Source: Albula goreensis (Eukaryota; Chordata; Actinopteri; Albuliformes; Albulidae). Taken from it: a stretch of 64,000 nucleotides of DNA. Below are positions 23,165-63,691 of this stretch, piece after piece (the first letter of the stretch is position 1; each line of letters begins with the position of its first letter). The translations under genes were made by a program, and so were the position numbers. Where the stretch lies: positions 19,547,832 through 19,611,831 of the forward strand of contig CM040746.1 of assembly GCA_022829145.1 (NCBI GenBank), read 5' to 3'. Below the pieces are notes generated by a model, which worked only from the letters and a program-made list of their open reading frames with translations, had not been told where the DNA came from and did not search any database.

Positions 23165-23437
23165 ATGAGTACAGGTAAGTCATCCAGGAAGGAGAAGGCT
23201 GATTTGGTTAAAGACAAACCCAAGACCAACTTGCGGGACTGCAGTTTCTTTTTGGACGCATTATGCGTAGGAGTACCTTTTCGGAAAGATGTACGTGAGT
23301 TATCTTTTGGACAAGGACACCAGCATGTACTCAAATCCCGTGAGACATCCCAGCCTAAATTTAAACCACCAGAACTTTGTTCCAGCGCCTCCTCAGTATT
23401 CGGATTTCACCGGATACCATCACGTCCCAGGAATTAA
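23165..23437 (+). CDS. Upstream ORF in the cdx1 leader, overlapping the cdx1 start
   Basis: A 90-codon frame opens at an ATG 124 bases before the cdx1 start, in a different frame, and terminates 146 bases inside cdx1. Its start context is weak (T at -3), so leaky scanning could let ribosomes reach the cdx1 ATG. A perfect donor consensus, CAGGTAAGT, lies inside it at 23172-23180. The translation resembles no known protein. It may be a regulatory uORF, or irrelevant if transcription starts downstream. Confidence 0.3.
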
Positions 23438-23713
23438 CAATGACCCCCACCATGGTCAGAGCACAGGCGCATGGAACCCCGCTTATGCACCTCCTAGGGA
23501 GGAGTGGACCCCCTATGGACCAGGAACGGTACCCTCCACCTCAAACCCGGCACAAATCGGTTTCAGCCCCCCAGAATTTACTTCCGTCCCGCCGCCGGCT
23601 CCGGGACTTCTCCAATTCACCTATCAATTCACCTGTCGGTCAACTCTCTCCGAATTCACAGAGGAGAAACTCTTACGAGTGGATGAAACGCAATGGGCCG
23701 CCATCAAATTCAG
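23289..23713 (+). CDS. cdx1: cdx1 exon 1 (contains frame break)
   Basis: Starts at ATG with A at -3 and ends AATTCAG|GTAATT, phase 1. Residues 1-108 read correctly to PPPAPGLL (codon ending 23612). From 23614 the conserved continuation [13 protein letters not shown], then YEWMKRN, lies in the next frame. One extra base (C at 23613) or two missing bases near it would reconcile the two. Confidence 0.9.
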
Positions 23714-24541
23714 GTAATTGCTTAATTTATTTATGTTGATTTATAAAGCCACCGAGAAGGTATGGAAACCCATGTTTTGCATTATATTTACGTTTCTCAT
23801 TAATGTACTGCTTGTCATTTTAATATAGAACTTATATCTACATTAATTGTTCTAAACGATTTGACTATTCTGTATTATCGTTAGAGAGCGCCATTTGCAT
23901 ACCTTGCAGCATATCATCTGTAAATAATTGAGTAAAACGAACCATTCGCCTTTAGCTATTACAATGCATCATACGTGCATTTTAGCTTTCTGACTTTTTT
24001 CTGAAATTCCGCACATTCAGGAGTTCCGTAGATGCAGGAGTTCATTAATATCATTTGACTGATTGTCTTAACTTAAAAGTGTAATGTCAGACTGACAGAC
24101 ACGCGAATATAATAGCCATGACAAAATGACAAAGATGGTCACCTGTTGGTTTGAGTTGTGGATGCAGTTAAAGCATATATATACACATCATTTTCTTATA
24201 TGAATTTACCGAAAAGCCGGTCAGTTGACGGCAGTTTTATTTCATTGGCACACTTTATATCAAGTGCATTTCACGTCCAAGGAATCAAGTTTTTTTTTTT
24301 CTTTTATGCAATGACAAGGTCTGTCTAGCTGCGTGTAGCTATCAGTGTGTTCCATGAATCTCGACACATACTGACTTAAATCAGCCAATTTACCACTAGT
24401 ACAAGCTCATCAGTTTTATGGGTACTATATATTTAATGGATTTACAAGGTGAAAGGCTTCACAACAATGTCACTGCTCCGATGTGAACTTTTCACAGCGG
24501 AGCCCATTAGTTAAGGTAGATTAAAAAAACATAAACGATTA

Positions 24542-24599
<58 letters not shown>

Positions 24600-27500: not shown

Positions 27501-30500
27501 AATGGAAAAAAATAGAGACAGGGCTGAAAATCAGGGGGGTGCATGAAGAATGGGGGAACCCCTCTAAAAACATACATGTGGGCCAGGTTGCCAGTTAATT
27601 GTTTTACCAGTGTAGTTATCCTTCCACTCTATGTAGTTATGGTTTGTCACATAAAAGCCCATCCCCAGCACCTCTCCTGCTTTCCTGCCTCAGCTTAACT
27701 GTGCAGGCACTTCCCCAAGAGTCGGTGGTCCGTTTAAACTCTCAATGGCAGTGAGTTTTGTAAAGACAACATGGCCCAATAAATTAGCTGAGAGTGCAGA
27801 GGTATGTTAAGGCGGTCTTGGTCAAAACTTAACATGAAAGGCTTAACTTGTGAATCTGGACATTCTGGTGTGATTCCTCCACACGTAGTCAACCAGAGCA
27901 GTGACGCACTGGTGTGTTTGTCTCTGAGTGCTGCAGAGAGAATCTCTGCTATGTTTATGACAAGACCTGATAAAATTTGAGTCTATCTACACAGCGGGAA
28001 TGTTTCGGAATGGCCATAAAAGCACGAGAGCAGGGAATCTCTTGGTACAAGCATTTCTTACATGAATACAGCCCACTGGGTCGTGCCATTATCTTGCTGG
28101 CCCAGACAGACAAATTTTGAAGCGTGCGTTATCGATTAACTCAGAACAAGTGCAAAGACACTTTATCATATCACCTGTAGGCTCATTGTTTCTAATGAAC
28201 TTCCCATTGGCAGCAACTGAAAAATCATCTATCTGGGTGTGCAATGACAGGACAGACAGAGGACAAGGCACAAAGCAAGAGCCAGAGCGTAGGCTTTCAT
28301 ATCATTTGCCATTATAGAACAATTAGATGCAATATTAAGTACAAACATTCGGAGTTCCATATGCGTACGCACACATGCACACATGCATGCATGCACGCAC
28401 ACACCCCACACAAGCCATAGTTAATAGTACATCGCAAGTATATTTAAGCACATAGATGAAAATGCAATTTATTATGTACACCTAATGACATCAGTATTGA
28501 CTGAATCACATGCATGCATAGGTGGAGTCTTCCTGGCGAGTGACAGGAAAGGTCAAGTTGAAAGACATCCCCTTGCATCATCTGAGTCACAGATAAATGG
28601 TCACAGTCTAAGACATGCTCAAAATCCACAATGACCATTGTGCAACATTGCAAACAACATTGTAGAATCAATCTAAAATGAATATTTCCACTCATGTCAC
28701 CCTTGGTGAGAAATTCCCTGAAATGTTAATATCTAAGGCCAGACAAGCAGACAGGTGGTGTACACGCCCTGTAATGACTTTCTAGAGTGAGAAGACACTT
28801 GTTTCAGACAGACTGACAGACTTCCACACGCCGCAAATTCTTATCTGTGTGTGCACCTCCAAATCAATACAGTATGTTAACGCTCCATCAAGACCCTGCA
28901 GAATCGATATCCCCGGGACGTCCCAGGCGCTGAAACATCTTGGGCGCTGCATGCTGTGGGCACGGCAGCTTGTATAAACACTCAGCATTGATAAGACTGC
29001 CCATCAAAATAGCAGGTTGCTGCATTAATTATGAATCACATGATTAATAGAATTCATCAGGATTACACAGGCGCCAGTGAGTTTTAGAGGCCCCTAGGAA
29101 CTGTGCCTTAAAGTCCCCACCCCCACAACACACACTTCTCACATCACTTCCTCTTATGCATGTTTTAATCTTTAACTTGGTCAGTGCCGGTACATCCATG
29201 GGTTCTTCCTCAAAGGAATGAAGTACATTTCTGAGATACTGTATAGATTAACAGTGAAATTTGGCTGTAAACGCTGACTTTTATTTTAGTTTTTTTCTCT
29301 CAAAAGTCTATAACGTGTACTTACAATTATATAGTGATTTTATTAAATAAGTATACAAAAATGTCCTCCTTTCAGAAACTGCACATACTTCCTGGTCGGC
29401 TTCTAAGAAATCATCCAATGTACTGGAAAGAATCTTTCAAATGCACCGTGCCTGTTTCCAATCTGTGATACAGCACAATTTGAAATGATATTCCTATTAC
29501 AGAAGTCAAAAAATCATATCAAACTGAAAAAAAAATATTGGTGTTGCACACAAAATTTTGTCTTTCTTGGTAGATTTTGTATTCAGGGCCCAACCCAGAC
29601 CTCAGTTACTGCTTAAATGTGTTTTCTGTGAAATGATAGAATCTCATAATAATTGACTTGAGTGCTTAAATGCATTCAAGCAGTATGTATCTGAGGTCTG
29701 GATTCAGGCCTTAGGTTTACATATACATACATATTTATTTATATGGCTGGATATTTACTGAAATTAACATGCTTACTTTAAATCACAGATGAATGCCCAA
29801 CACAGTTATGAATATGAAAACAATAGTTTCACTCATGCAGAGATGCCTTTATGGCCTTTAAGGCCTCTCTCTGAAGAACTGCAGGAGACAGACAGCACTG
29901 ACAGGCAGAAAGAAGCCCCCTGTTCATGGTCTGAAACAAATATTACTTTGGGGTTTATTAGTTACAAACATGATTATATTGCTAGATTAAAACAAGGCAT
30001 TTTCTCCTGGATTGATTGCAGGAGGAAAGACACGAACAAAGGACAAATACAGAGTGGTATACACAGACCATCAACGTTTGGAGTTGGAGAAGGAGTTCCA
30101 CTACAGTCGATACATCACCATCAGGAGAAAGGCTGAACTTGCCACCACTCTCAGCCTATCAGAGCGACAGGTGAGACCATGTGCTCCAGATTTGGAGAGG
30201 TACCCTGGCTTCAGAGCTGGCACTATCTCTCTCCATCTCACAAACACATGTGGACACACGTGTGTGCGCGCACACATACACACACACACACACACACACC
30301 CAGGGCCGGCTCTAGCCATGTTGGTGCCCTAGACAAGATTTGGATTTGGTGTTGCCCCAGCATTGTAAAAAGAGGTTTGTTTCGTTGTAATATAATCTCA
30401 AATAAGAACAAAGAAAAACACATCATTGGTATTTCTGTTGCTTACAGACATCAACATTAGCGATAGTAGCCTATGTTATAGTCACATTAACATTTCCGAT

Positions 30501-31288: not shown

Positions 31289-31371
<83 letters not shown>

Positions 31372-31759
31372 CTCTCTCTCTCTTCTCTTTCTTTCTTTCT
31401 TTCTTTCTTTCTGAGGAAGGGTGCTGTACTTGTGAGCTTAGTTGTACTTGTAAACTTGTGGGTGAGCTTTGTTGCAGGTCTGCTACAAAGAATTACTTAT
31501 TATTATTATATGTAAGGGCACTGTTAAACTTTTCATACTTTTTGAATTTTGGCAGGTAAAAATCTGGTTCCAGAACAGGCGAGCGAAAGAGAGGAAGGTG
31601 AATAAGAAGAAGATGCAACAAACCCAGCAGGCCTCAACGACTACTCCTACCCCACCAGGTGTGGGCAACCATGGTAATATTGCCATGGTGACCAGCAGCA
31701 GTGGTAGCAGTGGCTTGGTATCACCATCAGTAACAATGACAATTAAGGAGGAGTACTGA
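23289..31759 (+). CDS. cdx1: Cdx1 caudal-type homeobox transcription factor (three exons)
   Basis: Nuclear DNA-binding protein of the caudal (ParaHox) family that patterns the posterior axis and intestine. Exons are 23289-23713, 30022-30170 and 31556-31759. The N-terminus [14 protein letters not shown] and the block [10 protein letters not shown] are hallmarks of Cdx1. A YEWMK hexapeptide precedes the homeodomain, which starts at [16 protein letters not shown] and is split by intron 2 immediately before [14 protein letters not shown], the usual CDX intron position. The C-terminus [10 protein letters not shown] is typical. Predicted length is about 258 residues, normal for fish Cdx1. Exon 1 has a frame break at 23613 (see findings), so the literal reading fails although everything else looks functional. 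I cannot tell whether this is the a or b paralogue. Slc6a7 downstream supports orthology. Confidence 0.93.
24543..24600. repeat. (TTA)n microsatellite in cdx1 intron 1
   Basis: About 19 perfect trinucleotide units. Confidence 0.93.
29587..29710. mobile_element. Short palindromic MITE-like element, copy A
   Basis: The left arm (CCAGACCTCAG...TACTGCTT) is complementary to the right arm (AAGCAGTA...CTGAGGTCTGG), giving a foldback of about 124 bp in cdx1 intron 1. A second element with matching ends and the same internal GCTTA-ATGTGTTTTC string lies at 62688-62794, which supports a dispersed family. Confidence 0.55.
30022..30170 (+). CDS. cdx1: cdx1 exon 2 (most of the homeodomain)
   Basis: Acceptor TTGCAG, donor CGACAG|GTGAGA. 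Its 149 bases enter in phase 1 and leave in phase 0. It encodes [14 protein letters not shown] through SLSERQ, which is the N-terminal arm, helix 1, helix 2 and the start of helix 3 of the homeodomain. Confidence 0.95.
30272..30299. repeat. (CA)n microsatellite in cdx1 intron 2
   Basis: A CA tract directly abutting the hAT-like end at 30301. It could be the insertion target. Confidence 0.85.
30301..31260 (+). mobile_element. Possible truncated hAT-like element in cdx1 intron 2
   Basis: CAGGGCCGGCTCTAGC at 30301, followed by TTGGTGCCCTAGACAAGATT, matches the type of terminus I know from fish hAT elements. The opposite inverted end was not found before the (TTTC)n array, so the right boundary is approximate and the copy is incomplete. 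No transposase coding is seen. Confidence 0.4.
31288..31411. repeat. (TTTC)n microsatellite in cdx1 intron 2
   Basis: Long tetranucleotide array with a short CT interruption, ending about 145 bases before exon 3. Confidence 0.93.
31556..31759 (+). CDS. cdx1: cdx1 exon 3 (recognition helix and C-terminus)
   Basis: Acceptor TTGGCAG, phase 0. It begins [20 protein letters not shown], the DNA-recognition helix and basic tail, then a Q/T/P/S-rich segment, and ends in TIKEEY with TGA at 31757-31759. Confidence 0.95.
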
Positions 31760-37778: not shown

Positions 37779-40700
37779 TTCCTGTCATCCATGTTTATTC
37801 AGAACTGTTGAGAAGGTGCAAAGGAACCATCGTGCTGGCAGAGCAACATAGCAACAGGGCACGGACCTGAAGCGTCTCCAAGCTGACCATCTCCTGGAGG
37901 TAAGGAGCTGTCACACCACGGATGGCTGTGTGCGCCTGCCTGGCTCATTTGATTGTTGCACACACGCTCTCCCAAGCCCAAAGATGCTGTTCCAGCTGTG
38001 ATAAAAAAGGCATTGGAGGAAATCAAGCATTACGGCTGCAGCATTTACATCTTTTGTTATCTCTCTCTGGTTTACAATGTGCTCCATAAAACCTTCACTC
38101 CACATGCCATCGCCTCTGTCCTCTCCACTCTCTATTATTTGCTATCTTTGTTACCTTGCATTCTTTACTGCTTGAGGATGCAGTTGACATTTGTCTTCCT
38201 TTTGAAATATTCCCTCTATCTTTTCTTACAAAGTCTTTCTTTTTTTCTTTTTTCTCTGGTATTGAGCGCTTGAGAAATAGTCTTTAGCCCATTGCTGATA
38301 TGTATTTATTAGTACTGCTCATATGGAAATGAAGTGATACCAGTGAAATTGCATTGCTTCATGCTTTCCATTATGATAATTCTTTGTACACCTGTGGCTG
38401 TATGCACTTACAACCAGATTGAATATGATGTGGCAGTGCATGATTTCTCTTAAATATTGGTCATAATTGATCTACATAACTTTCTAGAAATCTTTTTAGT
38501 TGACAGAATATTTCTGTATGTATGAAATGCCATCAATAAATGCCTCTGAAAATTTGATGCAATCAGCTGTTAGTGTCAGAGGGGATTTTACTGTCTTTGC
38601 CAGAATCAAGCTTTTATTCTCTGTGGAAAACCTTGATAAGAATCTTCAGCTACAGGCACTCAATGTCCAGACTTCCATGACTGCAAACAGAAGCAGACTT
38701 TGCCACTCCTGACAGAACTGTATCACCTTTGCAAAGTAGATTTACATATTAAAATGTCTTATAGCATTGAATAAAATTTATATAGATTGTTGGAATATTG
38801 TCATTTCTCTGCATGAAATATTGCATCAGTGGTTATAGGGGAGGTGGAGTGGGAGGAAGAGTGACATGTATGAATTGTGGAAATATGTCTTTTTTGTGGT
38901 AGAGAAGTAACAGTGTGGCAGTTGCCATTATTATGTATAACAATACTGATAATGTCAGCACTGTTGGCTACTGGCTGTGGGTTTCCATGGAAACGTTCTG
39001 CTGGAAACATCCAATAGTTTCAGTGTAGATGCGTGTGCATGTAGATATATTTGTGTATTCATAAAGACAATTGTTTTTGTTGGCTAATTAATAATTTCTC
39101 TACTGAAGTTCAGAGAACACTTTTATTTTTAACATTCATTTTTGGGGTCCAACAACAGAAGAAATGTGATAACTATTTAAAATTAAATACTGTAAAATGA
39201 TGTGGATAAACTCTTTGAGTAACTCGCTGGAGAAATTTATTTATGAGAATTGTTTTGTTGAATAAGTGTGTTTAGGGGTTATTTTCATCACCATGTCATG
39301 TCCATGTTTGTTAGCATGAGCTCCTAGGACAGCTGTCATCTCTGGGTTAATCAGTGGTCAAGATGACCATTATATTAGTCATAGGTGCACCGAATAGGCA
39401 CAACTTTTACAGCTATCCTAAATGATGAAGCCCAAACAAAAATGACTAAATAGAGAATGAAACTGATTTGATACACAAAAGTCACCATACATATGAACAC
39501 TGAAAATGAACCATGGCCTTGAATGCCTTCTTTGGTTTAAAAAATGATTACTGAAATTTTAAAATGTCAAGGACACAGTTTAATTGGATTTGGAAGTTAG
39601 GATGAGGCCAATATGGACCAGCGGGCTCCGTTCATTCAGAATATGGTGAACAGAAAATGATTTTACCTTGTTCATGAAGACACACCAAAGGCAAGGAAAC
39701 GGTAAAGCAAAGGCGTTTCCAAAGTAAAATGCCCCTTTAAAGGTTTTTTTTTAAAGGAATGTATAAAAATGCCATAATGAACTCTGCCCATGGGCTAAAT
39801 TCACCTTATATTTTTTTTTTGATTGGCCTGGCCCTACAGCTGAAAAAGTCTAACAGGTTATTTTGTCTCACTGGAAATCAATAAATCGCACAGAGGGTCT
39901 CAGAAAAAATATAAATGACTCTTTATATGTTTATGGATCCTTTAAATACATTATCCATAAAATTTCATACATTAAGGTTCAATCAACTGATACAATTTTT
40001 GTTTTATAATATGTACAGGTGTGTTAAACAAGTTCCTTTTCATTCTTCAATGCCTCTTTATGCATCAAGTGATTTCCAATACTTCTTGTTCCTGTTTTGT
40101 CAGAGCTATACAATGGCCTCTTGAAAACACTGGCTGAGACTTCCTCTGAACAGCTCCTTTGCTTTGATGCCTACCTGCAGCATTGTTTCTCAGTGCTTTT
40201 GTCAAAGCTCAGTCCCCCATAAATAATCAGTGAGGTTGTTGTGTTTTATTGCTGATTGTTAATCAGCTCGGGGGTGGCAGGAGCAGGCCCTACTGTGGCT
40301 TTGAGATTGCCAATGAGGCATTCTGCAAACTCTCCAACAAGCTCCAAGTCAACGTTTCCCTGTTCTTCCTTTAATATGGTTAAACAGCGTGTGCAGAGTA
40401 CATATCGGCCTCACAGAAGTGAGCGTACGTAACCGTCATCGCTGTCACCACATGCCATATCATGGCAATTGTAAAAAAGATAGGGAGAGGCCACAGTTAT
40501 CGTGAGAACTGCACATTTTACATGTGTTTGTCTTATTGTTGCAATTAACATCTTAGAAGTAATGTTTAAGAATACAGACAGTGGTTCCAGTTAAGGATAA
40601 GCACATACTAAAAGAATACATTTAAAGATACATCAAGTGAGAAGAGGACACAGTCTGCAAATTAATAAGCATTATTGGTTAAACTGGACTGAACACAATA

Positions 40701-40779
40701 ATTCTAAATCTGCCCTTCTGCTATAATGCTCTTTGTAATACTCTGTTATCTGTTACACTGTTATGTTTTGGGGATCCAG
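32471..40779. other. Interval between cdx1 and slc6a7, no recognised exon
   Basis: Over 8 kb of mostly unique AT-rich DNA with a (CT)n tract at 37742-37779. The slc6a7 transcription start and the exon for its first dozen or so residues probably lie here but could not be identified. A relatively GC-rich patch at 33480-33790 has open frames on both strands and no family match. A donor-like AGGTAAGG follows 37897, without a coding frame I can justify. Confidence 0.55.
37742..37779. repeat. (CT)n microsatellite
   Basis: CT repeat with one TT interruption, about 3 kb upstream of the first visible slc6a7 exon. Confidence 0.85.
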
Positions 40780-40973
40780 CCCAGTACCCCAGACCTGCTA
40801 CTTAGTATTTAGTCCCAGTGAAGGGGCGGATGGTCTGCTATCAGAGCATGAGTTCCCAGCTGAGCGGGGCAACTGGACAGGGAAACTGGACTTCCTGCTC
40901 TCTTGCATCGGGTACTGCGTTGGGCTGGGCAATGTGTGGAGGTTTCCCTACCGCACCTATGCCAACGGGGGAG
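40780..40973 (+). CDS. slc6a7: slc6a7 exon with TM1 (start uncertain)
   Basis: Reads [20 protein letters not shown] then [20 protein letters not shown] and [13 protein letters not shown], ending GGAG|GTATGG in phase 1. Upstream, STPDLLLS matches the mammalian N-terminus but lies in another frame. The exon could instead begin after TTTAG at about 40811. The acceptor ATCCAG (40778-40779) is a best guess. Confidence 0.75.
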
Positions 40974-43900
40974 GTATGGGAGAATATCCAGCAGAAAAAG
41001 AGTCAGATTAGTTTATGTTCCAGCAACAAATAATTGTCAAAAAAATCTATTCACAATTCTGTGAAAATAATGCACACAAGCACACACACACACACACACA
41101 CATAAGCATAAGACATGTCTTAGTATATTACCAGATTCCTTACAACTGTTTTATCCACACAGAATGATGACTAGTCCAAGAGCATGTTAGTTAACTGAAT
41201 AATTTACCATGTTAGCTGGTCTTTAATGAGCAGCCCAACCTGGCCTTTCATCGTTCCAGGTACTCTAGACTGACAGAGAATGCACAGAGAGGCTGGTACT
41301 CCTTACTCCATCAGTAACTAACAGAATCTTTCATTTTCACTGAATGTTTCCTTTTTTCACCAGGTGCTTTCCTCATCCCCTACTTCTTCATGCTGGCCAT
41401 CTGTGGGATCCCCATCTTCTTCATGGAGCTGTCACTCGGCCAGTTCTCCAGCCTTGGACCCTTGGCAGTGTGGAAAATCAGCCCTTTCTTCAAAGGTGAT
41501 GCCATTTGATGACCCAGCCTAAGGATGGCATGAATTACTGCAACATGTGGGCAGCTTAAAATGGAAGATCAGCAGTTTTAAAATAAATACACAAATAATT
41601 CCTTAAAATAAACAATCTTTCTTCATTCTTCCAAGTGTTATTTCCATTTTTATAAAGCACTAAAATGGAATAAATATTATGGAGAAATATTCTACATATT
41701 TAGTAATTAGTAAATGCTATCTGAGAAACAATATAAATTCAGTGAATGGTGGGTCACACTTAGTCACAGGACCTCATATCTGATAACATCTGAATGTATG
41801 AAGACTTCCTCCTCCTCTGCCTGCCCAGGTGCCGGCGTGGGTATGATCATCATCGTGTCCTTAGTGGCCATCTACTATAACATGATCATCACCTACGTGC
41901 TGTTCTACCTGTTTGCTTCACTGACAAGTGACCTGCCCTGGCAGCACTGCGGACACTGGTGGAACACTGAGCACTGTCGAGACCACAGGCGGGGAAACCA
42001 ATCAGGGCATGCCCTCAACACTACAGGCACTGTCAGCCCAAGTGAGGAGTACTGGAGGTGAGAGTGTGGCTCCTCATCTTATGGGTTCATTGAGCAAATA
42101 TGCTGAAACTCATCCATAGATAGCATGACTAGCCAAGCAAGCCAATCACGTGATGTAAATCCAGTTTTGCATTCTCCGCTTGAGATGCAAATGCCATTGA
42201 TTCTTTAACGGTGATGTTACATGGTTTATATTTTACCTGTGATGTTATGTGACTACATGTCTTTTGTTTTTCTGAGTGATATATTCCTCTGGTCCTAAGA
42301 TCACAGCTTTTCTTTCCTAGTAGAACTTGAATCTAATCAGGCAAAAACACCTCAAACAATTATGTGGTTTATGCCTCAGTACCTTGTGGTGCCAGCAAGT
42401 AAAACAGACAGAAGGATATTCTGCATAGATCTAATTAGCCAAATTCTAGGCTACACATGATGATGAGCGGCCAGAGAACGCATCCGTTTCTCTCTGATAA
42501 TACAGTCAGAGTGAGGGTTCATTTCCATGCTCACCTTGCTCCCAGTCAGGCACACTGACTTGCAAATGAGCTCGATTTGCTCCAAAGGAGGACTGTTGGG
42601 CTGATAACAGCAGCCATATTTTACAGAAACCCATCTTATCTCAGTTTTTCTTGGGATTTCAATCCCTATTTCCCCTCATTTCTGCCCTGTTTATACTGGA
42701 TTGGGAACACAAGAAATTCATTAGTTTCCCCTGTCATCCCAATTCTGGGTTTGCATTCCAGTTTTCATGTGCCTCAGAAAAATCTTATGTTTGTTTGCAT
42801 ATCTTTCTCATTTTCAATAACAACAAAATTGAGCTGCTAAAATTGCATGCAACAATTTCCCTACCTTAGCAGTTATTGCATTAGTTAAAATCTTTTATTA
42901 GGAATTTTTCATTCAAGAGTGCCATGCATGAGACTGAACTGAGTGTTGATGACTGCATGAGAATAAATATTGAGGACATAACTGCATATTAGTTAATTCA
43001 TAGTGTGTTATACTTTAATCAGAGCTTTTTATGTAATGTCCGATTTGTTGGTGGATTTCTGATGGCCATGCTGAAGCCAGAGGGTCCTGCACATTCAGGG
43101 CAGCTCTGGCGTGGGTCACCCAGGAGCAGTCAGGTGGAACCTGTGCCTCTGTCTGCTTCTTTCCTGGGTCATTGTCTACATGTGTATCCTCAAAGGGGTC
43201 AAGTGCTCAGGGAAGGTGAGGCCATCATATAGCAGTTGGTCTTTTACATAGAAATTTACAGAATTAAGTACATGATATTGGCCGAAAATAGACAATATTC
43301 ATGGGTGTCTAACTTGACAGTCTTTTTAAATGCAAAAAAAAAATACTATTTCTGAAGCATATAGGTTTATCGATATGCAGCCTTAACGAGACAAATATAA
43401 GAGCTAGATGAGGTTCACATTTGAGACAAATAATAATTAATTATTTGAGTAATTATTTGAGCATGTCCAGACCTCTTGGTAAGACTTGATACAGGGAACA
43501 ATGTTCTCATTCATGATTTATGATGTGTCATCATTTTATGTAATGGTAATGACATAATTTACATTTTATGTTACACATTAATATTAAGAAAATGTATCAG
43601 ATCATTTATGAGTACATATATAATCAATAATGCACATGACAGTGGTAGATTACTTTCCCTCATTGCTTTCAGTGTACACATTCATTATGCATTCAGATAT
43701 AGTTTTTAATTTCCTTGTTTCATATATTTGTTGTTTGTTGTTTGTATTTTTTTGTTATCAGAGCAACCAATTTCAGAGCACCCAGCTATGCCTGATGAGA
43801 TCAGCTGGTCGCTCTGAACCTCCTTGTACAAATAACAACACAAGACACAGAAACAGATCCTTATAGATAATGAGAGAAAAGACTTGATAGCAGAGAATTA

Positions 43901-46900
43901 AGCATGGTTCTAAATTCTAAATAATAAAATATGACTCTTTGGCAGAGGTGTTTAGGAGCAAATCCTTGCATAGTGTTTGACACAGCTGTGACACAAACAT
44001 CCATGCTTGTTGCTGAGGGATCTCATCACCCATTGCAGTTCCTCTATCTGCTGCCCAGGTGGTGTACTTCACAGCCACCTTCCCCTACATCATCCTGCTC
44101 ATGCTGCTGGTGCGGGGGGTGACGCTGGATGGGGCCTGGCTGGGCATCAAGTTCTACCTCACACCGCAGTTTGACCACCTGCTCTCCTCTAAGGCGAGCC
44201 ACTTCTCTCCAGTGTCAGTCAAAGCAGCATGTTTCTCCCAGCTCCTTTTCCAAACCACAGCCACTCTTAAAACAGGGGAGGGAGACGTAATTTGATCAAC
44301 GAGGACGGCTTTCCAGAGCTGGGTTGTTAAACGCTTTCTCATGTTGCCCTGTAAGGAGAAGAGAGGACTGGAACTACAGCTGCACTGTCATGTACAATTG
44401 AGAGGAGAGTTTTGCTCCAGGCATATGTCTGTAGTGTTATGTTTCTTACAGTGCAGTTTTAATCAGACTGCTTAACTCAGGGACCTGCTCTTGTGAATGC
44501 TGATAGACTACTGGTTGTGCTGTATAAGTTGGAATTCCACATCAGAGCCATAAATAGGGAAGAAAGATAGATCTGTGTGTGGATTTGAGCTATGATTTGA
44601 AGAAGTTATTAAAATGCACATTACTCATTTATATTACATTACAAAGTCTACAGAATATAATTGCTCCTGACAGCTCTCTCTTGTTAGTTTCCATGCTTCA
44701 AAGCAGGCTCCAGGACTTTGGAGTTTTTCTAAACAGAAGTCATAGAAGGAAGCCTGCTTTGCCTTCCCCTGAGGTCTCTGGTGTGAATTGCTCCAAGGCC
44801 ATTGTGTCAGGTGTCAACAATACAGCAATTTGTAGACTGAAAACCCTGAGAAGGTTGTTGACCTCTTGTATCAGATAAGGTCAAAAGCATTGTAACTGGT
44901 CTTACCATAGTCACGTTAGACAGGCAAATGTGAAAAACCTTAACATATGCCCATATGAGATACATAATGGATACATTTTACATTATTTTAATTGTTTTTA
45001 AAATGGGAAAAATGTATTTAACCAATTCTTTTGGTGTTTTGTAAGGATCTGGTATATTACCACAGAACGTTTGTACTGACCATGGTATAAGTGCACTACT
45101 TTTATATGTAAAGATATAAAGATTGTTATGGTCTTGGTGCCTCAGGTTTGGATTGAAGCTGCCCTGCAAATTTTCTACTCCCTGGGAGTGGGGTTCGGTG
45201 GCCTGCTGACCTTTGCCTCCTACAACACCTTCCATCAAAACATTTACAGGTTTGTGTAACTTCACCTAGAGGGTGGGGCACCTGGGGACCTAGAGCCCTT
45301 TTTTCCTTATCACCAACCCTTACAAAGGTGAACTCCAGTACCTACAGGAAGTGGGCGGAGAGACCTTTGCTCGATGACGACTCAGGAGCTCCTCATCGTT
45401 TGACTTACAGATATTCCCTTACTCAGTTGTGTAATTCTTCAAGGGATACGGTCCAGGTGCCAGGGACATTCTGGCCCCCATAGGTAAACAAGCTTTCGCT
45501 CACATCAGCACAGAGAGAGCTGGCAGAGGCGTAGGAGAGTGAATGTGTCAGGTGCAGAAAATAAAGGAGATTGTTTTATGGCACTGTGGTAGAAACCTAG
45601 CTCTGAGGAACAGGATGCCGTAAAAGTAGTTAATCAGTTTTCACCTGAGGCTGAGAGCAAAGTTGAGAAAATTTTTTCACCTTATACCTGTAAACAACTC
45701 AAACATATAGATGGCAATGTAGTATTATACTACTAAAAGATAAATTAATATAAGGATGAAACAGTGACCACAAATTTACATTTTCCTTAGCATGTTTTAT
45801 AATATTTAGGAAATCTAAGGAAAAATGTTATTTTTGTTTTCTTTAAATATAAAGTGCCCTTGTGTTGCCATAGAAGGTATGAATAGACAGTCCAAACTTG
45901 ATCCAGTCAGAAAAATTGAAAAGTTAAATGTAAATCCATTTGGCCCCTGAAAAATGTATTGTCAGTAAGCTTGTCAGTAAGTAGGAATGTTCTAACTTCC
46001 GACCCCTGAAAACAAGTGAAATGTGTACAATATATGTTTTGAGTCTAATAGAAAATAGGGGATATTCATCATGACTGCAGTTCAATTAGTCATTAGAACA
46101 GTGAGTCTTCCTTGTTTCAGAATTGATAAATGTATGTGTATCTCATTAAGTGGGTGAGTGGTGTCCATCAATTGGATGAAGGATAAGCAGTGTCAATCTG
46201 GCTCTCCTTTCAGGGACACCTTCATTGTTACACTGGGAAATGCATTCACCAGCATCCTGGCTGGATTTGCCATTTTCTCTGTTCTGGGCTACATGTCCCA
46301 GGAGCTGGGTGTCCCAGTCAACCAGGTGGCACAGGCAGGTGAGGCCTATCTTCATTGCCATCTTGACTAATTTATCAGTATGGTGTGCACATGTCGGCCT
46401 CAGGTTAGGCATAAAATGCCATGGGGTGAATCAGCTCAAATAATCAATGGTTCTTTATTATACTGTACTTCAGCTGTACTCGATTCTTACACTTCTGGTT
46501 ACTGTGTCAATCCATTGACAGCCTGTATTGTGGGTTTGGCTCCTGTGTATTGCTCTCAATGGGCCCAGCTGGTCTTCAGATACAGAGATCAAAGGTGATA
46601 GGCTGTGATAGAGGGACAGACCGTCTGCACTTTCTGCCCCCTTGGGGCTAAACTCCACCCTCCTACCTGGTAATTATAACAGGCTCCCATGCAAGACCCC
46701 TTCCCCCTCAAAAAGGGCCAGAGAGAGGCCTTTTGAGCAGAGTATCCTAGCGATCGTTTGGCCCAGTGACATTTCTTAAAAAGAGGGTCAGCGAGATGCT
46801 TTGTTGTAAGAATCACAGTTACATATAAGTACATCTTCAGTGATGAATCTCCTCAATGATTCTGGATTTCTCATCAAGAAGCATATGCTTAAAAAACCAA

Positions 46901-48493
46901 GTTTAAGTAACAAATCTTAAAAGTGACAAAAAGCTCAATCTAAACTTTAGCTGTATTAAAAGAATAAACAATTTTCAAATTCAAGCAATTAAATTGTTGC
47001 ACTTGCAAAATTAGTATTTGTGTTAAGTTTTACATTGTCTTTGTTGACTTTTTTCTTGCTGTGTTTTATAGGCTTTTATCTACATGACCTATTGTATTTA
47101 AAGTTAATGTTGCAAATTAGAGCATATTCTCAGTGGACCAATCTGGGTATATAAGGCAATAAATAATAATAATCAATATGTGGGGCGTGCTGAATTATAT
47201 CTCCCTCCTTGATGAAAACCATATTGAAAACATCAATCTTTCTGACTCTTTTTTGAAAATGATGTAATTCGAGGTAAACTCATGTGACATTCTCAAGGAA
47301 ACATAATGTGATGTGTGGCGTTTATGTCATTCAGAATGAGATTCTACCGTGCTGAGCTGTAATGGCTCCCGCCTCTCTTTTTTTTCCATACGCCAGGTAT
47401 GTCTTTATATACCAACTGCAGTATCTTGGTTAATGGAGTGCAATGTATCTAGGTTAAGTCAGCATATCAGTGCATTGAACTCATTTCTCTCTGGATGCAG
47501 GACCTGGGCTAGCGTTTGTGGTGTACCCACAGGCCATGACGATGCTGCCACTGGCCCCACTGTGGTCTTTCCTCTTCTTTTTCATGCTCCTTACTCTGGG
47601 CCTTGACAGCCAGGTACATGCTACATGCACATATTCATTCAGTGAATTCTATTAAATCATATGTTTATGTGATTATGATTAATAAGACTAATTCTGCATT
47701 TGAAAACATCATACATACATACATACATACATACACACTCATTTCTCTCTCTCTCTCTCTCTCTCACTCACTCACTCACTCACTTACTCTAATGCAATAA
47801 CACAAGCTCTTGGTTTATGCTCAATGAAGTACAAGCAAATATCAATAGCAGTAGTATAAGGAAATATCTCCAACAGCTCTCTTTAATTATATTAACAAAA
47901 CTGTTGCTGCAAAATGTTTTTCCTGTGTTTGTCTGCAGTTTGCATTTATGGAAACTATTGTCACAGCTGTAACAGATGAGTTTCCTTACTTCCTACGGCC
48001 ACGGATGGCCCTCTTCTCAGCATGTGTCTCTGTAGCCATGTTTCTCATGGGCATAATTCTCACCACTGAGGTACCATTTATTTCCTTCAGCAGTTCCCTC
48101 TCAGCAATCTAAATATGTGCATTCTTATTTATCAGTTTGTTTGCTTATTTATCTATTTTTTCAAATGCTCGACACAACTATAACATTTTTTAGCAAGTTT
48201 TTTATATTTTTTTAAAAAATATATGTTTATATTGCAATTGATTATATGTTATGTAATGATGATGCCAAATTTCCAGTGTAATGAAATTTTTTATTTTTTA
48301 TTTAACCTTTATTTAACCAGGTAAAGTCTTGTTGAGATTAAAATCTGTTTTACAGGAGAGACCAGGCAAAGAAGGCAGCAAAAAAAAAACACATATCACA
48401 AAGACAATATAAAAATATAAATCCTTGTGTCAATTAAAAAATAGAGCACTGGAATTATACATTTACGTTTAAGTGACAAAATTAGGTATGACA

Positions 48494-48524
<31 letters not shown>

Positions 48525-51500
48525 TGTATGTATGTATGTATGTATGTATGTATGTATGTATGTATGTATGTATGTATGTATGTATGTATGTATGTATGTA
48601 TGTATGTATTAAATGTGTATGGGAGTTAAAATGACTTAAGTTTCACTATGAAATTGCTAACATTATAAATTTTACTATTTTATTATAAAATAACAAACAG
48701 CCTGTCAATAGTATCCTATATGAATATAAACTGATCCTAGTGTAAGCTTATATACCATGTCGACACATACTTATATGTGTTGACATGGAAGATGAAAGAT
48801 GTAGTCTAACATTTTAAACAATCCTAACTATAATGTAATTTTACCAATAGCATGCTGTCTAAAACAAGAGTAGGTATGTTGTCAAACTACAAATAACATT
48901 TTAAAATTATTTTTACAATATAGGGTGGAATGTACTGGCTGGTCTTGTTTGATGACTACAGTGCAGGGTTTGGACTGATGGTAGTAGTCATCACTTCCTG
49001 CTTTGTCATATCGCAAGTCTACAGTAAGCAAATCCTCTTTCATTCTCTATTTTAAATGGTTTTCTTTTTAACAGTACACAATTCACAGCATTTCAGTGAC
49101 ATTAAATAATTGTATGAAATATTGTCCATATATGGGATATTTTGTACCTGAAAACGTGCATTATGTTCTGTATTTCTTCAGGTGTGCAGAGATTTTCTCA
49201 GGATATTAAGATGATGCTTGGTTTTGAACCCGGCATCTATTTCACCACATGTTGGAGGTACCTGTCCCCCCTCACCATGGCGGTAAGACCCTGTTTCCTC
49301 CTACATAAAAATCTAATTTCAGAGCAGGTCTGTGGGTTCAGCACGACTATATTCTGACACATCAGATATTCACAAGTGGGATGGCTGTAAATGAAGCAGT
49401 AACAGAAAAGGTGCCGTGGAAAACACCATTGGCTTAAACTGAATGGAACCACTGTTGTTGTGTAAGTAATGTTAGACTGATGCAACATTTAGAAGCAATC
49501 GTTCAGTAAGCAGTTTGCACATAAATACTATGCTATTTTTTCATACTGAGTAGTATTTTTCCTATGAATACAGATAAAGCAGATATTATACCAAGAAAAT
49601 ATCCACATTAAAAGCAACTGGCAATGAAAGTGGCAAATAAAATACATCAATAAAAGATGAACCACTTATTATCTGAAATGAGTGTAGAAATGCTTTATAA
49701 GTCTTCTGCTGTATAAAGCTTCTCATGCATTCATCACACCAGTGATAAGTGGCTATTGCTAATAATTGTTTTTCATCATGTAATCAGGGATGTATGATTT
49801 AAGGGTTCATTTGATTGGGACTTTATTTAAAAGGGTGATAATGAAACATTTGTAAGCATACAACCATATTATAAAATGGGAATTACCAGAAATGGAATAT
49901 CACAAACCAATTGGCAATTTGGAGTCTCATGTAGTATCAGTCCTGTCGCTACCATACCGAGCTTGTGCTGCTCTCTTATCCGTAGGCCTTACTGGTGTAC
50001 AGTATTGTGAAGTACCAGCCCAATCAGAGTATGGGACATATAAGTTCCCCCAGTGGGCAGAGACCCTGGGCATCCTGATGGGGTTGCTGCCCTGTCTGAT
50101 GGTACCAGCAGGGATGGTGGTGGCATTGCTGAGACAAGAGGGTACAGTCCTGCAGGTAAACCTCACATCTAGAATTTAAACCAATCAAAATGTCAACTCA
50201 CAGGGTATTACCATTCAATTCCTATTCTTCTGCTCCAAAAAAATAACATAACATTCATTATTATGTTGAATCAACTGTGCAAAAAGACATTTTAGTAGCT
50301 GGTTCTGTGAATACAGTTTCCACGCCTTCATATCTTCATATCCATAATCCTTCATATCTTGCTAGGGTTTAAAAAATATTGAAAAAGTAAATATTCAAAG
50401 TGCTATATGAATATAACCCCAACCATTTATAGTTCTAACATACCTGTGCTAACATACCTGTTCAATTAAATTCACAGCAGTAAAAATTAAGCAATCATGT
50501 AATGACATACAGAGATAGACGTATAAGATAAGAACATAACATCAGACGGAAAATGGGAGTCAGAGCGGCAGTCAGTCAAAGTATGTAAGTGCAACACAGC
50601 CTGCAGTGCTGTCAGTTGTGCATGTCGTTAAGTCCAAGAAATTAACAGGGTTTATATATCCAAATTAGCTTTGTCTCCTTGCCTGAAGCCAAGCTTGTTT
50701 TGTGAAATAGAGGAGGTAGGTGTTTGTATGTTAAAATATGCGTAATGTTTGCAAAACATCAAGCTCTGATGAAGAATGTGACACACAGATGTTGTATAGT
50801 ATACATGTGCAATCTAATTTTTCATTACCATCATATGTTTTAATTTCAGGGCTCTTCTCTGCACACATTCTACTCAAATATTGCAGCTCCTATGTGATGC
50901 TACATTTTTGTCATTCTCTTGTGACCAGGAAATATCCCTCCTGTGAAAGGATGTCCGTGTGCTCTCTGGGGTTATACGTGGTAGTTTTTTATTTTGACAC
51001 AGTGGGTCTCACAGGCTTTCTCATACTCTCATCACACCAAGGTGTCCCCTATATCTCCGGGATGTACTTGAGCACATTTGAAAAACATTGCTTCACTTAA
51101 GGCCAATGCCAACACTATTTTTAACTATTCTATTTTTCTTACTATTTTTAGGGATAATATGCCTACCAGAATTCAGATAAAACACAATTTTATGCCATAT
51201 GCAATTTATGAAAAGCAAGTGTACTTTACCAGTGGTCCTATGGATTTTGTTCTTTGTTCAGTTTTTCCCTGTTTTCATAAAACCACAGGTATTTGTAAAA
51301 TAAACAAAAAAAGGGGGGCAAGGAGAACTTATCCATACAATTATCCTTAAGTGAAAGAAGTTTTTGATTTGAATTGAATATTGATACTGTTAATAATTGT
51401 AATCCCTCATAGATGTCTTAACAATAGATTTTACATTATTCTTTCACTCAGCCAATTTCAATAGTATGAAAAAATGCTAGTTTTTAAACACGTTATTTTA

Positions 51501-52738
51501 ACTGCTATTGTAGATCAGGATCAATATTTTACAATTTATGATCTGAAATGTTTGTCATGGTGAAACCTGGTTCATATATTGATAATATGCACATGCACAG
51601 CTGGTTTTATGGGACCAGTATGTGTTATTTTACTGATAATCAGGGGTCTTGTAATGTAGAAATCTTTAGAGGTATCCACAAGCATATAATATTTATCAGC
51701 TATTATCGGTTCAGCAGCAGAAAGCGACCATTCGAGGGTGTCAAATTTATCACTGGATGGTGAGTGTGAACCAGTCTCAGTCTTTCTAAGTGTTGCAGGC
51801 TTGGTATCTTATCTTTCTCAGGATATTGCTATTATTATTTGTCAGTTCTGGGCTACTTCTTTCCCTTGCAGTAAATGGAAATATGGAGGGACAGCCTGTG
51901 AGGTAATAAAAGTGTGCAGCATTTATCCACTCAGATACCACTCAGCATCAGCCTGAGGTGGATGACTCACATCCCCAACCAATCACTGTCTCTGTATCCC
52001 ACAGTTCATTTTAAAGACCAAACAAGAAAAAAAAACTATTATAGACACTTTGTGAAAGAACTTAGTTTTATCTTGTTTTTACTTGCATTAGAATTAATGC
52101 ATGTTTGAGTAATTTTTACAAATGTCTACAAATCACAAATTTGGAGTCATTTTCACTTCCACCCCCATTGCCAATTGCTCATAATATATTTCCCATGGAG
52201 TTTCAATCTGAAATCATTATTCAAAACTGTCCTGAACCATTCAGAAGTTGAGCAGCTGTGATGCCAAATGTGCACCAGCAACCTTCTTTTTTTGGAAATC
52301 ATTGTTTGAAGCCTCAGAGAGAAGCCCTCTTTGTGGTAATCTCTACTTTGTATATTCTGTTATCTCATTAACTCTGAGTAAGTCTCATTTACTTAGGATT
52401 GTTTCCTTTTTGTTCACCACAAGCATACTGGAATAATATAATGACATAGTGGATGAATAAATTACGTCTGTGAAAATACCAAAAAGACTACTAAAATGTT
52501 ACAACATGTACCTCTTTCTCAGCGGCTGAGGCAAGCCATTCGGCCATCTTTGGAATGGGGTCCTTCCTTGGACGAGAATCGTACAGACATCTATGTGAAC
52601 ACCCTTCCAGGCTGTCAATCTCCAAGGCCTCTGATGGTCCACATGAGGAAGTACGGAGGCATGACCAGCTATGAGAATACTGCTATGGAAGTAGATAAAG
52701 AGATGGAGACTGAGATAGAGGAGGCATTAACAATCTGA
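40780..52738 (+). CDS. slc6a7: Sodium- and chloride-dependent proline transporter Slc6a7 (PROT), 13 exons, N-terminus missing
   Basis: Plasma-membrane SLC6 symporter that takes up L-proline with Na+ and Cl-, in mammals mainly at glutamatergic terminals. Thirteen exons give about 627 codons against about 636 residues in the human protein, with the same order of conserved blocks: [18 protein letters not shown] and NVWRFPY (TM1, Na+/substrate site), [18 protein letters not shown] (TM2), IYYNMII (TM3), a large loop with two Asn-X-Ser/Thr sites (NQS, NTT), [10 protein letters not shown] (TM4), [42 protein letters not shown] (TM8), and a C-terminal tail with [19 protein letters not shown]. All borders are GT-AG except one GC donor at 44194. 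Two frame breaks (near 40797 and near 50023) interrupt otherwise strong conservation. Position just after cdx1 matches vertebrate synteny. SLC6A7 is favoured over the glycine transporters by long identical stretches, as I recall the human protein. Confidence 0.93.
41081..41102. repeat. (CA)n microsatellite in a slc6a7 intron
   Basis: About eleven CA units just after the TM1 exon. Confidence 0.85.
41364..41495 (+). CDS. slc6a7: slc6a7 exon, TM2
   Basis: CACCAG acceptor, CAAAG|GTGATG donor, 132 bases, phase 1 to 1. Encodes [20 protein letters not shown] then [20 protein letters not shown], the second membrane helix and intracellular loop. Confidence 0.95.
41829..42057 (+). CDS. slc6a7: slc6a7 exon, TM3 and large extracellular loop
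   Basis: CTGCCCAG acceptor, TGGAG|GTGAGA donor, 229 bases, phase 1 to 2. Encodes [20 protein letters not shown] and the extracellular loop containing the conserved cysteines ([12 protein letters not shown]) and the N-glycosylation sequons NQS and NTT, ending SPSEEYW. Confidence 0.93.
42058..43082 (+). other. slc6a7: slc6a7 intron, no other feature
   Basis: About 1 kb of unique AT-rich intronic sequence. Nothing else recognised. Confidence 0.75.
43083..43215 (+). CDS. slc6a7: slc6a7 exon, TM4 (acceptor unusual)
   Basis: Encodes [19 protein letters not shown] then [19 protein letters not shown] and VKCSGK, ending in donor GGAAG|GTGAGG, phase 2 to 0. The in-frame acceptor is the AG at 43081-43082. 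The more natural-looking CCAG two bases upstream would break the frame. Relative to the human SRYVLHIQG two residues are missing, so the start may be damaged or misread. Confidence 0.88.
43216..44058 (+). other. slc6a7: slc6a7 intron, no other feature
   Basis: AT-rich intron of about 0.85 kb. No repeat or exon recognised. Confidence 0.75.
44059..44193 (+). CDS. slc6a7: slc6a7 exon, TM5, with GC splice donor
   Basis: CTGCCCAG acceptor, 135 bases, phase 0 to 0. Encodes [20 protein letters not shown], then [18 protein letters not shown] and HLLSSK. The exon must end after AAG because the next exon continues VWIEAAL, but the following bases are GCGAGC rather than GT. Confidence 0.92.
44194..45145 (+). 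other. slc6a7: slc6a7 intron with GC-AG borders
   Basis: Begins GCGAGC and ends CCTCAG. No other feature seen in 0.95 kb. Confidence 0.75.
45146..45249 (+). CDS. slc6a7: slc6a7 exon, TM6
   Basis: TGCCTCAG acceptor, TTACAG|GTTTGT donor, 104 bases, phase 0 to 2. Encodes [19 protein letters not shown] and [15 protein letters not shown], the unwound helix 6 substrate and ion-binding region of SLC6 carriers. Confidence 0.95.
45250..46213 (+). other. slc6a7: slc6a7 intron, no other feature
   Basis: About 0.96 kb of unique intronic DNA. Confidence 0.75.
46214..46338 (+). CDS. slc6a7: slc6a7 exon, TM7
   Basis: CCTTTCAG acceptor, GGCAG|GTGAGG donor, 125 bases, phase 2 to 1. Encodes [20 protein letters not shown] then [20 protein letters not shown]. 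Confidence 0.95.
46339..47500 (+). other. slc6a7: slc6a7 intron, no other feature
   Basis: About 1.16 kb. The two overlapping short frames after the preceding exon are read-through of its donor, not extra exons. Confidence 0.75.
47501..47613 (+). CDS. slc6a7: slc6a7 exon, start of TM8
   Basis: GGATGCAG acceptor, AGCCAG|GTACAT donor, 113 bases, phase 1 to 0. Encodes [20 protein letters not shown] then [17 protein letters not shown], with the LTLGLDSQ sodium-site motif. Confidence 0.95.
47709..47785. repeat. Compound (CATA)n(CT)n(CACT)n microsatellite in a slc6a7 intron
   Basis: Three adjoining simple repeats within the 325-bp intron that follows the TM8 exon. Confidence 0.9.
47939..48070 (+). 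CDS. slc6a7: slc6a7 exon, TM8-TM9
   Basis: GTCTGCAG acceptor, ACTGAG|GTACCA donor, 132 bases, phase 0 to 0. Encodes [20 protein letters not shown] then [20 protein letters not shown] and LTTE. Confidence 0.95.
48286..48390. mobile_element. Fragment of a common fish interspersed repeat
   Basis: The string TTTATTTAACCAGGTAAAGTC, ATTGAGAT-like sequence, then CAAAGAAGGCAGCA resembles a short interspersed repeat that I recall from many fish genomes. Class and exact ends are unknown. It lies inside a slc6a7 intron. Confidence 0.45.
48495..48609. repeat. (TATG)n microsatellite in a slc6a7 intron
   Basis: About 28 perfect tetranucleotide units. A candidate length-polymorphic marker. Confidence 0.95.
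48924..49023 (+). CDS. slc6a7: slc6a7 exon, TM10
   Basis: ATATAG acceptor, CTACA|GTAAGC donor, 100 bases, phase 0 to 1. Encodes [20 protein letters not shown] then [13 protein letters not shown]. Confidence 0.95.
49182..49282 (+). CDS. slc6a7: slc6a7 exon, loop and TM11 start
   Basis: TTCTTCAG acceptor, GGCG|GTAAGA donor, 101 bases, phase 1 to 0. Encodes [20 protein letters not shown] then [13 protein letters not shown]. Confidence 0.95.
49283..49985 (+). other. slc6a7: slc6a7 intron, no other feature
   Basis: Unique AT-rich intron, 0.7 kb, ending CCGTAG. Confidence 0.75.
49986..50155 (+). CDS. slc6a7: slc6a7 exon, TM11-TM12 (one base short)
   Basis: Starts [12 protein letters not shown] in frame with the previous exon, then continues [18 protein letters not shown] and [20 protein letters not shown] in the other frame, ending CTGCAG|GTAAAC. 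Flanking exons require a length divisible by three but it is 170, so one base is missing, near CCCAATCAGAG (about 50021-50026). Confidence 0.9.
50156..52522 (+). other. slc6a7: slc6a7 last intron, no other feature
   Basis: 2.4 kb. Several frames of 60-120 codons (for example 50738-51100) are patternless and not bounded by credible splice sites together with any family match. Confidence 0.7.
52523..52738 (+). CDS. slc6a7: slc6a7 last exon, cytoplasmic C-terminus
   Basis: TTTCTCAG acceptor, phase 0. It encodes [20 protein letters not shown], then [20 protein letters not shown] and an acidic end, stopping at TGA 52736-52738. The MVHMRKYGG stretch is characteristic of the proline transporter tail. 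Confidence 0.95.
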   Translation, partial: RLRQAIRPSLEWGPSLDENRTDIYVNTLPGCQSPRPLMVHMRKYGGMTSYENTAMEVDKEMETEIEEALTI

Positions 52739-58699: not shown

Positions 58700-58745
58700 T
58701 AAACTGTATCACAGAAAGGACCCTGCAGAGGTTGAGAATCACATT

Positions 58746-62200: not shown

Positions 62201-63691
62201 TTGCTGGAGCCTGTAGGGAGCGCTCCATACACAAAACCAGAAGAGTGAAAAATTCTACTGAAGAAAATTAAACATTTATGCTTTACATTTGATCATTTCA
62301 TTTATTTTTCAGAATGGGGAAATGTTTAGAGCTGATCGTAGCTTGGGGCACTGCCTATCAAGATCTTAGTTGTTCTGTTCTTCTAGATAATTTACCAGCC
62401 GTTTTTAGAATTCTTCAGTAAGGGACATGTTTTGGGTCCCTAAAAGCTGGCTGATTGTGGGGGTGTAACTTTGGGGAAAAGCCATTTCTGCTTCAAATGT
62501 GCAACAAACCTCTTTTGTTTCTCAGGACCAACACTGTGACAACAAGAAGGAGACCTAGCACAAAAATGATGAGGAAGACGCCACCATTCTTCCATGATGC
62601 AGATACATATGAGATGTACTCTCCTAATGGAAAAATGAGCCTTCCATGATCACTCACGCACATATGCACATGTTGTTTACACTCTTTGGGCTGAATCCAG
62701 ATCTGTGCTTATATGTGTTTTCCATGCCAGTCTCTCACTCTCTCAATGATGAGCTGTATGGAAAATACACTGAAGTAGAGGTCTGGATTCTGCCTTTCAA
62801 CTCTTATTTCTTAATTTAATGTTTAATTAATTTACATAAATTATATACACTTAAAAAATACCTGCATTCATTTATTATAAAATTAGTATCCCTCACCACT
62901 GAGTTGTACTCTTGACTGCATGGTCATAGGATCTTGTTTGTGTCTAAGCAGACACTGGAAGTACACTCCTCCCTCCATCTGTGATGAGATGTCCAGGTGA
63001 CTGGTCATGGCAAACAGCCTCTCTGTGTCCTTTTCTGCTGTAGTCTTGGCTTTTTGACTCAGATCTTCACCCTTCCCATCAGTCCAGATCAGCTCTGGTT
63101 GGGGGAACCATTTCACTGACACACAGGTGAGGGTGAGCCCACTGCCCTGGGGCTCATTCACAGTAATGAGTGGGTGCTCCCTACAGCTGACAACAGGAAG
63201 GCCAATCAAAACACAGTGCACTTTCCCTTTGTGTCCAATCATGGATGGTTGCTACATAATTTGACCACAATAATTGTTTGTCAACAATTTGAAAATGTTA
63301 CAAAAGAATATTATGTAGCTTTAATAATATGTTAGTTGTGACAGTGGGCACTCACCAATGACTTCAAGAGTCACATGACTCTCTGAATACCAGTCAGTGA
63401 CCAGGACAGAACATGTGTATTTCCCCTGATCAGAGAGCTGCAGGTTGCTGACATGAAGGGAGACGTTTCCAGTCTTCAGCTCCTCCTGGAACAGTTGTGT
63501 TCTGCTGTTGTGATTCTGGTGACTGGAACCTGGCCTGTATTTGTGAACTTCTTTCCCCTCCCATTTCCACAGCACATTCATGTTCTCTGCATTGAGGGCA
63601 GGGGAGAGCTGACACTGCAGAACCACGACTCCACCCAGGTGCCCAAGTGTGCTTTCTTCAGGGGTCTGAACCGTAAACTCGGTAGGTTCTA
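58746..63691 (-). CDS. Butyrophilin-like receptor: IgV, IgC, TM, coiled-coil microexons, B30.2 (5' end missing)
   Basis: Type I membrane protein of the butyrophilin/BTN-like family, whose members regulate T cells through outer Ig domains and an intracellular B30.2 domain. Nine supported exons in gene order: 63356-63691 (IgV), 62897-63186 (IgC), 62510-62623 (TM), 61940-61966, 61423-61446, 61154-61180, 61020-61043, 60794-60820, 60149-60175 (24-27-base coiled-coil exons, the last three groups continuing to) 58746-59283 (B30.2); a possible extra microexon is at 60436-60461. All junctions are phase 1. Total is about 478 codons, plus a signal exon not seen, near the usual ~500 residues. Single-base losses break the IgC and B30.2 frames. 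Fish carry many such genes, so no one-to-one mammalian name is given. The ligand is unknown. Confidence 0.88.
59284..60148 (-). other. Intron before the B30.2 exon, with G-run
   Basis: Contains a T run (59311-59328) and an interrupted G run (59532-59548). No exon recognised. Confidence 0.7.
60149..60175 (-). CDS. Coiled-coil microexon, butyrophilin-like gene
   Basis: TTATTTTAG acceptor, GTAAGT donor, 27 bases, phase 1 to 1, coding WKAIQTNL. It joins directly to ADVTLD of the B30.2 exon. Confidence 0.75.
60436..60461 (-). CDS. Possible additional microexon, 26 bases, frame-broken
   Basis: Clean acceptor (TTTTATCAG) and donor (GTATGT) bound 26 bases, one fewer than the 27 of its neighbours. 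As read it cannot keep frame and meets a stop. It is either a dead exon or another single-base loss. Confidence 0.3.
60794..60820 (-). CDS. Coiled-coil microexon, butyrophilin-like gene
   Basis: TTGGACAG acceptor, GTAAGT donor, 27 bases, phase 1 to 1, coding CVELRDDL. The other two frames contain or produce stops. Confidence 0.75.
   Translation of the reverse strand: MVWNFVMI
61020..61043 (-). CDS. Coiled-coil microexon, butyrophilin-like gene
   Basis: CCTTTTAG acceptor, GTAAGT donor, 24 bases, phase 1 to 1, coding KIKKLEE. Confidence 0.75.
61154..61180 (-). CDS. Coiled-coil microexon, butyrophilin-like gene
   Basis: TATTGTAG acceptor, GTTTGT donor (the same donor type as the TM exon), 27 bases, phase 1 to 1, coding CSHLKKES. 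Less certain than its neighbours because the acceptor tract is weak. Confidence 0.55.
61423..61446 (-). CDS. Coiled-coil microexon, butyrophilin-like gene
   Basis: TATTATAG acceptor, GTAGGC donor, 24 bases, phase 1 to 1, coding DKRIIEE. Confidence 0.7.
61527..61563. repeat. (CAAT)n microsatellite
   Basis: About nine tetranucleotide units with one GTCA variant, inside a butyrophilin-like intron. Confidence 0.85.
61940..61966 (-). CDS. Coiled-coil microexon, butyrophilin-like gene
   Basis: TTTTCTAG acceptor, GTAAGA donor, 27 bases, phase 1 to 1, coding STTLKKER immediately after the membrane exon. Confidence 0.75.
62510..62623 (-). CDS. Transmembrane exon of the butyrophilin-like gene
   Basis: CCATTAG acceptor, AAAAGAG|GTTTGT donor, 114 bases, phase 1 to 1. 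Encodes EYISYVSASWKNGG, then the hydrophobic helix VFLIIFVLGLLLVVTVLVL, closed by the stop-transfer residues RNKR. This sets a type I orientation with Ig domains outside and B30.2 inside. Confidence 0.88.
62688..62794. mobile_element. Short palindromic MITE-like element, copy B
   Basis: The left end CTGAATCCAGATCT is complementary, with one mismatch, to the right end AGGTCTGGATTCTG, and the interior holds GCTTATATGTGTTTTCC as in copy A at 29587-29710. It lies in the intron between the TM and IgC exons. Confidence 0.55.
62897..63186 (-). CDS. IgC-like exon of the butyrophilin-like gene (one base short)
   Basis: TTGTCAG acceptor, CAGTG|GTGAGG donor. Encodes PLITVNEPQGSGLTLTCVS, WFPQPELIWTDGKGEDLS and GVYFQCLLRHKQDP, with the two disulphide cysteines and core Trp of a butyrophilin C-type domain. 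The length is 290 where a phase 1-to-1 exon needs a multiple of three. The frame from the acceptor reads AVGS and then must shift to enter PLITV. Confidence 0.88.
63356..63691 (-). CDS. IgV exon of the butyrophilin-like gene
   Basis: GTGTCTCAG acceptor, CATTG|GTGAGT donor, 336 bases, phase 1 to 1, frame intact. Encodes EPTEFTVQTPEESTLGHLGG, then VVVLQCQLSP, MNVLWKWEGK and LQLSDQGKYTCSVLV. These provide the V-domain cysteine pair, core Trp and the D-x-G-x-Y-x-C motif. Confidence 0.92.

Follow-up and report, generated by a model that had tools for sequence, protein, structure and literature searches.

Frame breaks in the neighbouring cdx1 and slc6a7 genes and a butyrophilin-like gene of Albula goreensis: probable DNA lesions of separate origin

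In the chromosome stretch of Albula goreensis analysed here (the window, 64,000 nucleotides, G000:C6:19547832-19611831), the reading frames of cdx1, slc6a7 and a butyrophilin-like receptor gene are broken at five sites, and on balance we favour the reading that most of these breaks are genuine DNA lesions, arisen separately rather than through a common read-error artefact; sequencing reads from the sites would, according to this reading, carry the same lesions. slc6a7 and cdx1 are neighbouring, long-conserved genes, and we tentatively suggest, at somewhat less than even odds, that the only SLC6A7 gene, which encodes a proline transporter of the brain, and a member of the cdx1 pair of ParaHox genes were lost recently and within a short time. 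If the lesions are real, this fish would be a vertebrate lacking that transporter, in which one cdx1 duplicate is being lost, and a natural test of slc6a7 and cdx1 function; if they are errors, the chromosome stretch needs checking before annotation. Either way, automatic annotation of the stretch is unsafe before the reads have been inspected.

The features concerned are the following; C2 denotes a second contig carrying a block with a cdx1 duplicate and non-coding elements in common with the window.

23289..23713, plus strand: cdx1 exon 1 (425 nt), whose frame breaks within 23613-23622
23613..23634, plus strand: site of the cdx1 break, where the 10-nt sequence CAATTCACCT is directly repeated at an offset of 12
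30022..30170, plus strand: cdx1 exon 2 (homeobox), intact
31556..31759, plus strand: cdx1 exon 3 to the stop codon, intact
24405-24454, 28089-28260, 35599-35744 and 56496-56606: non-coding stretches with 76-96% identity to the C2 block
37867..37899, plus strand: first coding exon of slc6a7, with CTG where the start codon is expected and the donor gtaagg
40780..40973, plus strand: slc6a7 exon 2, 7 nt too many within 40801-40810
41364..49023, plus strand: middle exons of slc6a7, open and of high conservation, with a GC donor at 44194
49986..50155, plus strand: slc6a7 penultimate exon, 2 nt too many within 50022-50029
52523..52738, plus strand: slc6a7 last exon, open to the stop codon
58746..59283, minus strand: exon encoding PRY-SPRY (B30.2), lacking a base near 58995 by comparison with a copy of 96% identity
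62897..63186, minus strand: exon encoding Ig-C, lacking a base at 63172-63174 by comparison with a copy of 97% identity
63356..63691, minus strand: Ig-V exon, open

A first-pass annotation of this DNA had listed five frame breaks and ascribed them to uncorrected read errors, describing three of the exons as exactly one base short, with splice sites and residues otherwise intact. Upon re-checking of the coordinates, a frame break was found in the assembled sequence at each of the five sites. A uniform class of one-base deficits was rejected, the sizes being +1 in cdx1, +7 and +2 in slc6a7, and -1 in both receptor exons; the description is thus correct for the two receptor exons by comparison with near-identical copies, is wrong for cdx1, and fits the penultimate slc6a7 exon modulo 3 only. 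Wrong exon boundaries were likewise rejected as a cause, given that acceptors and donors at the broken exons agree with the C2 and human frames.

Among solved SLC6 transporters, the slc6a7 exons match human PROT best by far, with 914.5 bits versus 561.8 bits for the next. In the first exon, the residues KRLQADHLLE align without gaps to human PROT residues 2-11, as part of a 73-residue piece (E 2.7e-30), and the donor lies exactly where the exon 2 acceptor demands one. The score of this exon alone is unremarkable, being reached by 62 of 1000 shuffles, but none of 1000 reaches it when the required donor is included. At the position of the human ATG stands a CTG, with an in-frame TAG 18 nt upstream. 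CTG acts as start codon in some genes; as a substitution, it is not what indel errors produce. Exon 2 contains 10 nt in place of one expected codon, that is, +7 relative to human PROT, or +1 instead if the fish protein is longer by two residues, and by eye the break lies on a short direct repeat (TTAGT, offset 7). In the penultimate exon, where human KYQP (to residue 523) adjoins SEYG (from 524), the window has two bases over, which would turn into -1 only if the fish protein had one extra residue; both sizes were derived from the residue numbering of the solved human PROT chain. Together, the CTG start and the two insertions mean that no full transporter can be read from this gene.

Beyond these lesions too, the supposed integrity of splice sites and residues does not quite hold for slc6a7. 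The intron at 44194 has a GC donor (exonic AAG followed by GCGAGC), a kind of donor with which introns can be functional, and the junction after 49023 encodes Ser where PROT, GlyT1 and a DAT have Gly in common. Apart from this one Gly-to-Ser change at a conserved position, the remaining codons are highly conserved, as judged against solved transporters.

The cdx1 gene encodes a Caudal_act domain and a homeodomain and has a second copy in the duplicated block on C2, as expected of a cdx1 duplicate. Its break separates the Caudal_act (Pfam) match into profile positions 1-96 before and 106-135 after, in two frames, while in the C2 duplicate the frame is open across the corresponding place. The sequence CAATTCACCT at 23613-23622 recurs exactly at 23625-23634, 12 nt downstream, and its upstream copy occupies the place of a different 9 nt in the C2 duplicate; the same Leu and Ile codons flank the 9 nt there and the 10 nt in the window, hence the +1. 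No other direct repeat of at least 9 nt with an offset of at most 30 nt occurs in the coding sequence of cdx1 and slc6a7 surveyed (2,713 bases); in shuffles of cdx1 exon 1, direct repeats of at least 10 nt arise in 45 of 2000.

Probably, 9 nt of the window's cdx1 were replaced by a 10-nt copy of the adjoining sequence; such templated copying of a neighbour would explain repeat and frame change together, a single extra T being the simpler alternative account. The lesion would remove the homeodomain from the protein, and thus presumably its function, a loss that would be tolerable because the C2 duplicate is intact. We regard the cdx1 break as probably a real lesion beside an intact duplicate. 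Exon 2 differs from that of the C2 duplicate by one residue, which suggests that constraint persisted until recently. In teleosts, cdx1a has evolved faster than cdx1b, according to the available part of PMC2020491; as in that pair, two cdx1 copies are present here, yet differing from the pair as described in that part, one copy has a broken exon 1, and the two copies are not assigned to a and b.

The two remaining breaks fall in domains of one minus-strand gene, whose Ig-V, BTN-type Ig-C and PRY-SPRY exons, all on the same strand, identify it as butyrophilin-like. The Ig-C break consists of CCC at 63172-63174 versus CCCC in a copy 22 kb downstream (97% identity over the exon), from which the Ig-V exon differs by 2 nt, the open frame of the two there being that of the window. 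The B30.2 break consists of AA versus AAA in the copy at C6:19699626-19700190 (96% identity); this comparison contains four gaps, two at bases that the copy lacks and two at bases that the window lacks, and the second base lacking in the window, near the domain end, had escaped the first-pass annotation. Two nearby butyrophilin-like copies are themselves broken in frame, at sites that differ from those in the window. In the B30.2 comparison, 9 non-synonymous and 5 synonymous changes give a ratio of 0.48 for this single pair of copies, while the corresponding Ig-C value is distorted because the copy ends in unrelated sequence on its 3' side. The copies align over the exon and little beyond, too little intron for a neutral indel rate. 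With its Ig-V, Ig-C and PRY-SPRY domains and its nearby copies, the gene resembles other butyrophilin-like receptors with B30.2 and, set against them, has nothing unusual. Independent small indels among copies are ordinary for such clusters, and errors would look alike; the gene shows either ordinary family decay or error. Near receptor copies, on the minus strand of L032 (2954-3924), transposase-like frames of 245 and 182 residues in different frames were seen by eye.

How often frames break elsewhere in the assembly was estimated from protocadherin exons, by hand count on 150 scored Cadherin_2 matches of 200 candidates, leaving out six matches outside the C6 and C2 clusters and taking as short any exon with an open frame below 700 residues (our own cut-off). 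In the C6 cluster, on the same contig as the window, 3 of 53 exons are short, compared with 35 of 91 in the C2 cluster (G000:C2:628126-1120670), which is either in mass decay or a badly polished patch. Three of the 38 broken exons were read, and each is open apart from a single net frame change, amounting to one base, to two bases (relative to a copy only 77% identical, with other gaps that cancel) and to two single bases 12 nt apart. Small lone breaks thus occur elsewhere in the assembly and are patchy. Assuming 2.4-kb exons, the C6 rate is about 0.024 breaks per kb, at which five breaks in about 3.9 kb have P = 6e-8 (0.001 at the C2 rate), the three breaks in cdx1 and slc6a7 P = 5e-5 (0.02 at the C2 rate), and the two in slc6a7 P = 0.001. 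The break rate in these exons is far above that of the C6 cluster and about six times that of the C2 cluster. Two observations argue against uniformly poor sequence: 254 kb downstream on C6, a sulfatase gene that we take to be arsi has a 507-residue open frame, and on C16 a frame stays open for 3,344 residues.

Among the rival explanations, indel errors from long reads, left uncorrected in a badly polished patch and breaking all three genes, survive best and keep a limited probability, and the rate in the C2 cluster makes such a local patch possible. What speaks for errors is that each receptor break is the loss of one base from a short homopolymer, that patchy lone breaks of 1-2 nt in otherwise open exons are found elsewhere, and that the coding sequence flanking the cdx1 and slc6a7 breaks is strongly conserved; to this extent, the read-error reading of the first-pass annotation stands. 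It fits poorly with the substituted slc6a7 start codon, the +7 and +2 insertion sizes and the direct repeat at the cdx1 break, and also has against it a rate well above the C6 baseline with its few short exons, the open sulfatase exon nearby and the broken receptor copies. One-base indels in homopolymers account for two of the five sites only (Ig-C and B30.2). Measured against long-read assembly indel errors as treated in the accessible portions of PMC12007338 and PMC8445201, the window is alike in having small breaks in conserved coding sequence, two of them in short homopolymers, and unlike in the start codon, the +7 and +2 sizes and the repeat-associated site. The companion argument, that the three genes are unlikely to have decayed independently, loses force, since for cdx1 an intact duplicate exists and the receptor sits in a local cluster.

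An improbable second explanation is that alleles differing at short repeats were merged into collapsed haplotypes, creating frameshifts absent from either allele. There is precedent in PMC8445201, in the part available, for frameshifts arising in a collapsed assembly from internal repeats together with nearby allelic variants, and both the cdx1 break and, on its shorter repeat, the slc6a7 exon 2 break would suit it. Merged haplotypes leave the CTG start codon and the +2 site unexplained, however, and cdx1 exon 1 has two matches only in the genome, on C6 and C2, and hence no second haplotype there.

Returning to real lesions as the preferred reading, the sequence makes slc6a7 a candidate recent unitary pseudogene. 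Unitary pseudogenes represent the loss of a single-copy gene. In slc6a7, at least two independent inactivating lesions are present (start codon, +7 and +2), and no other functional copy came up, either among the candidates scored (88 of 390) or in 50 kb of the block on C2: the 91 matches include none above 79% identity outside the window, and the 50-kb C2 stretch around the cdx1 duplicate has no slc6a7 match. The gene resembles unitary pseudogenes in this lack of a second copy among the matches scored, in lesions of several kinds and in its recognisable exons; it is unlike them in having very little damage elsewhere and in being known here from assembled sequence alone. Given that exon 2 of cdx1 and the middle exons of slc6a7 show signs of constraint, any loss would have to be very recent. 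Our literature search found no report of a teleost slc6a7 pseudogene. That slc6a7 still yields protein through a new N-terminus from the ATG at 40763, whose frame is by eye open into conserved exon 2 sequence, is very improbable, since this ATG precedes the acceptor (40780) and could be used only if intron sequence were retained, and since the +2 break would still cut off the last part of the protein.

As for the wider setting, the assembly searched comprises 931.9 Mb in 208 contigs. Homeodomain matches (150 scored of 560 candidates) form dense runs on C3, C5, C6, C12, C14, C19, C20 and C22, which were taken for eight Hox clusters. In positions 1-23000 of the window, no gene was noticed in a quick look, by eye only, at 275 frames of at least 40 residues. 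The non-coding stretches 35599-35744 and 56496-56606 bracket slc6a7, and both persist on C2, in which no slc6a7 was detected; such a pattern would suit regulatory elements for which slc6a7 is a bystander gene that contains or adjoins them.
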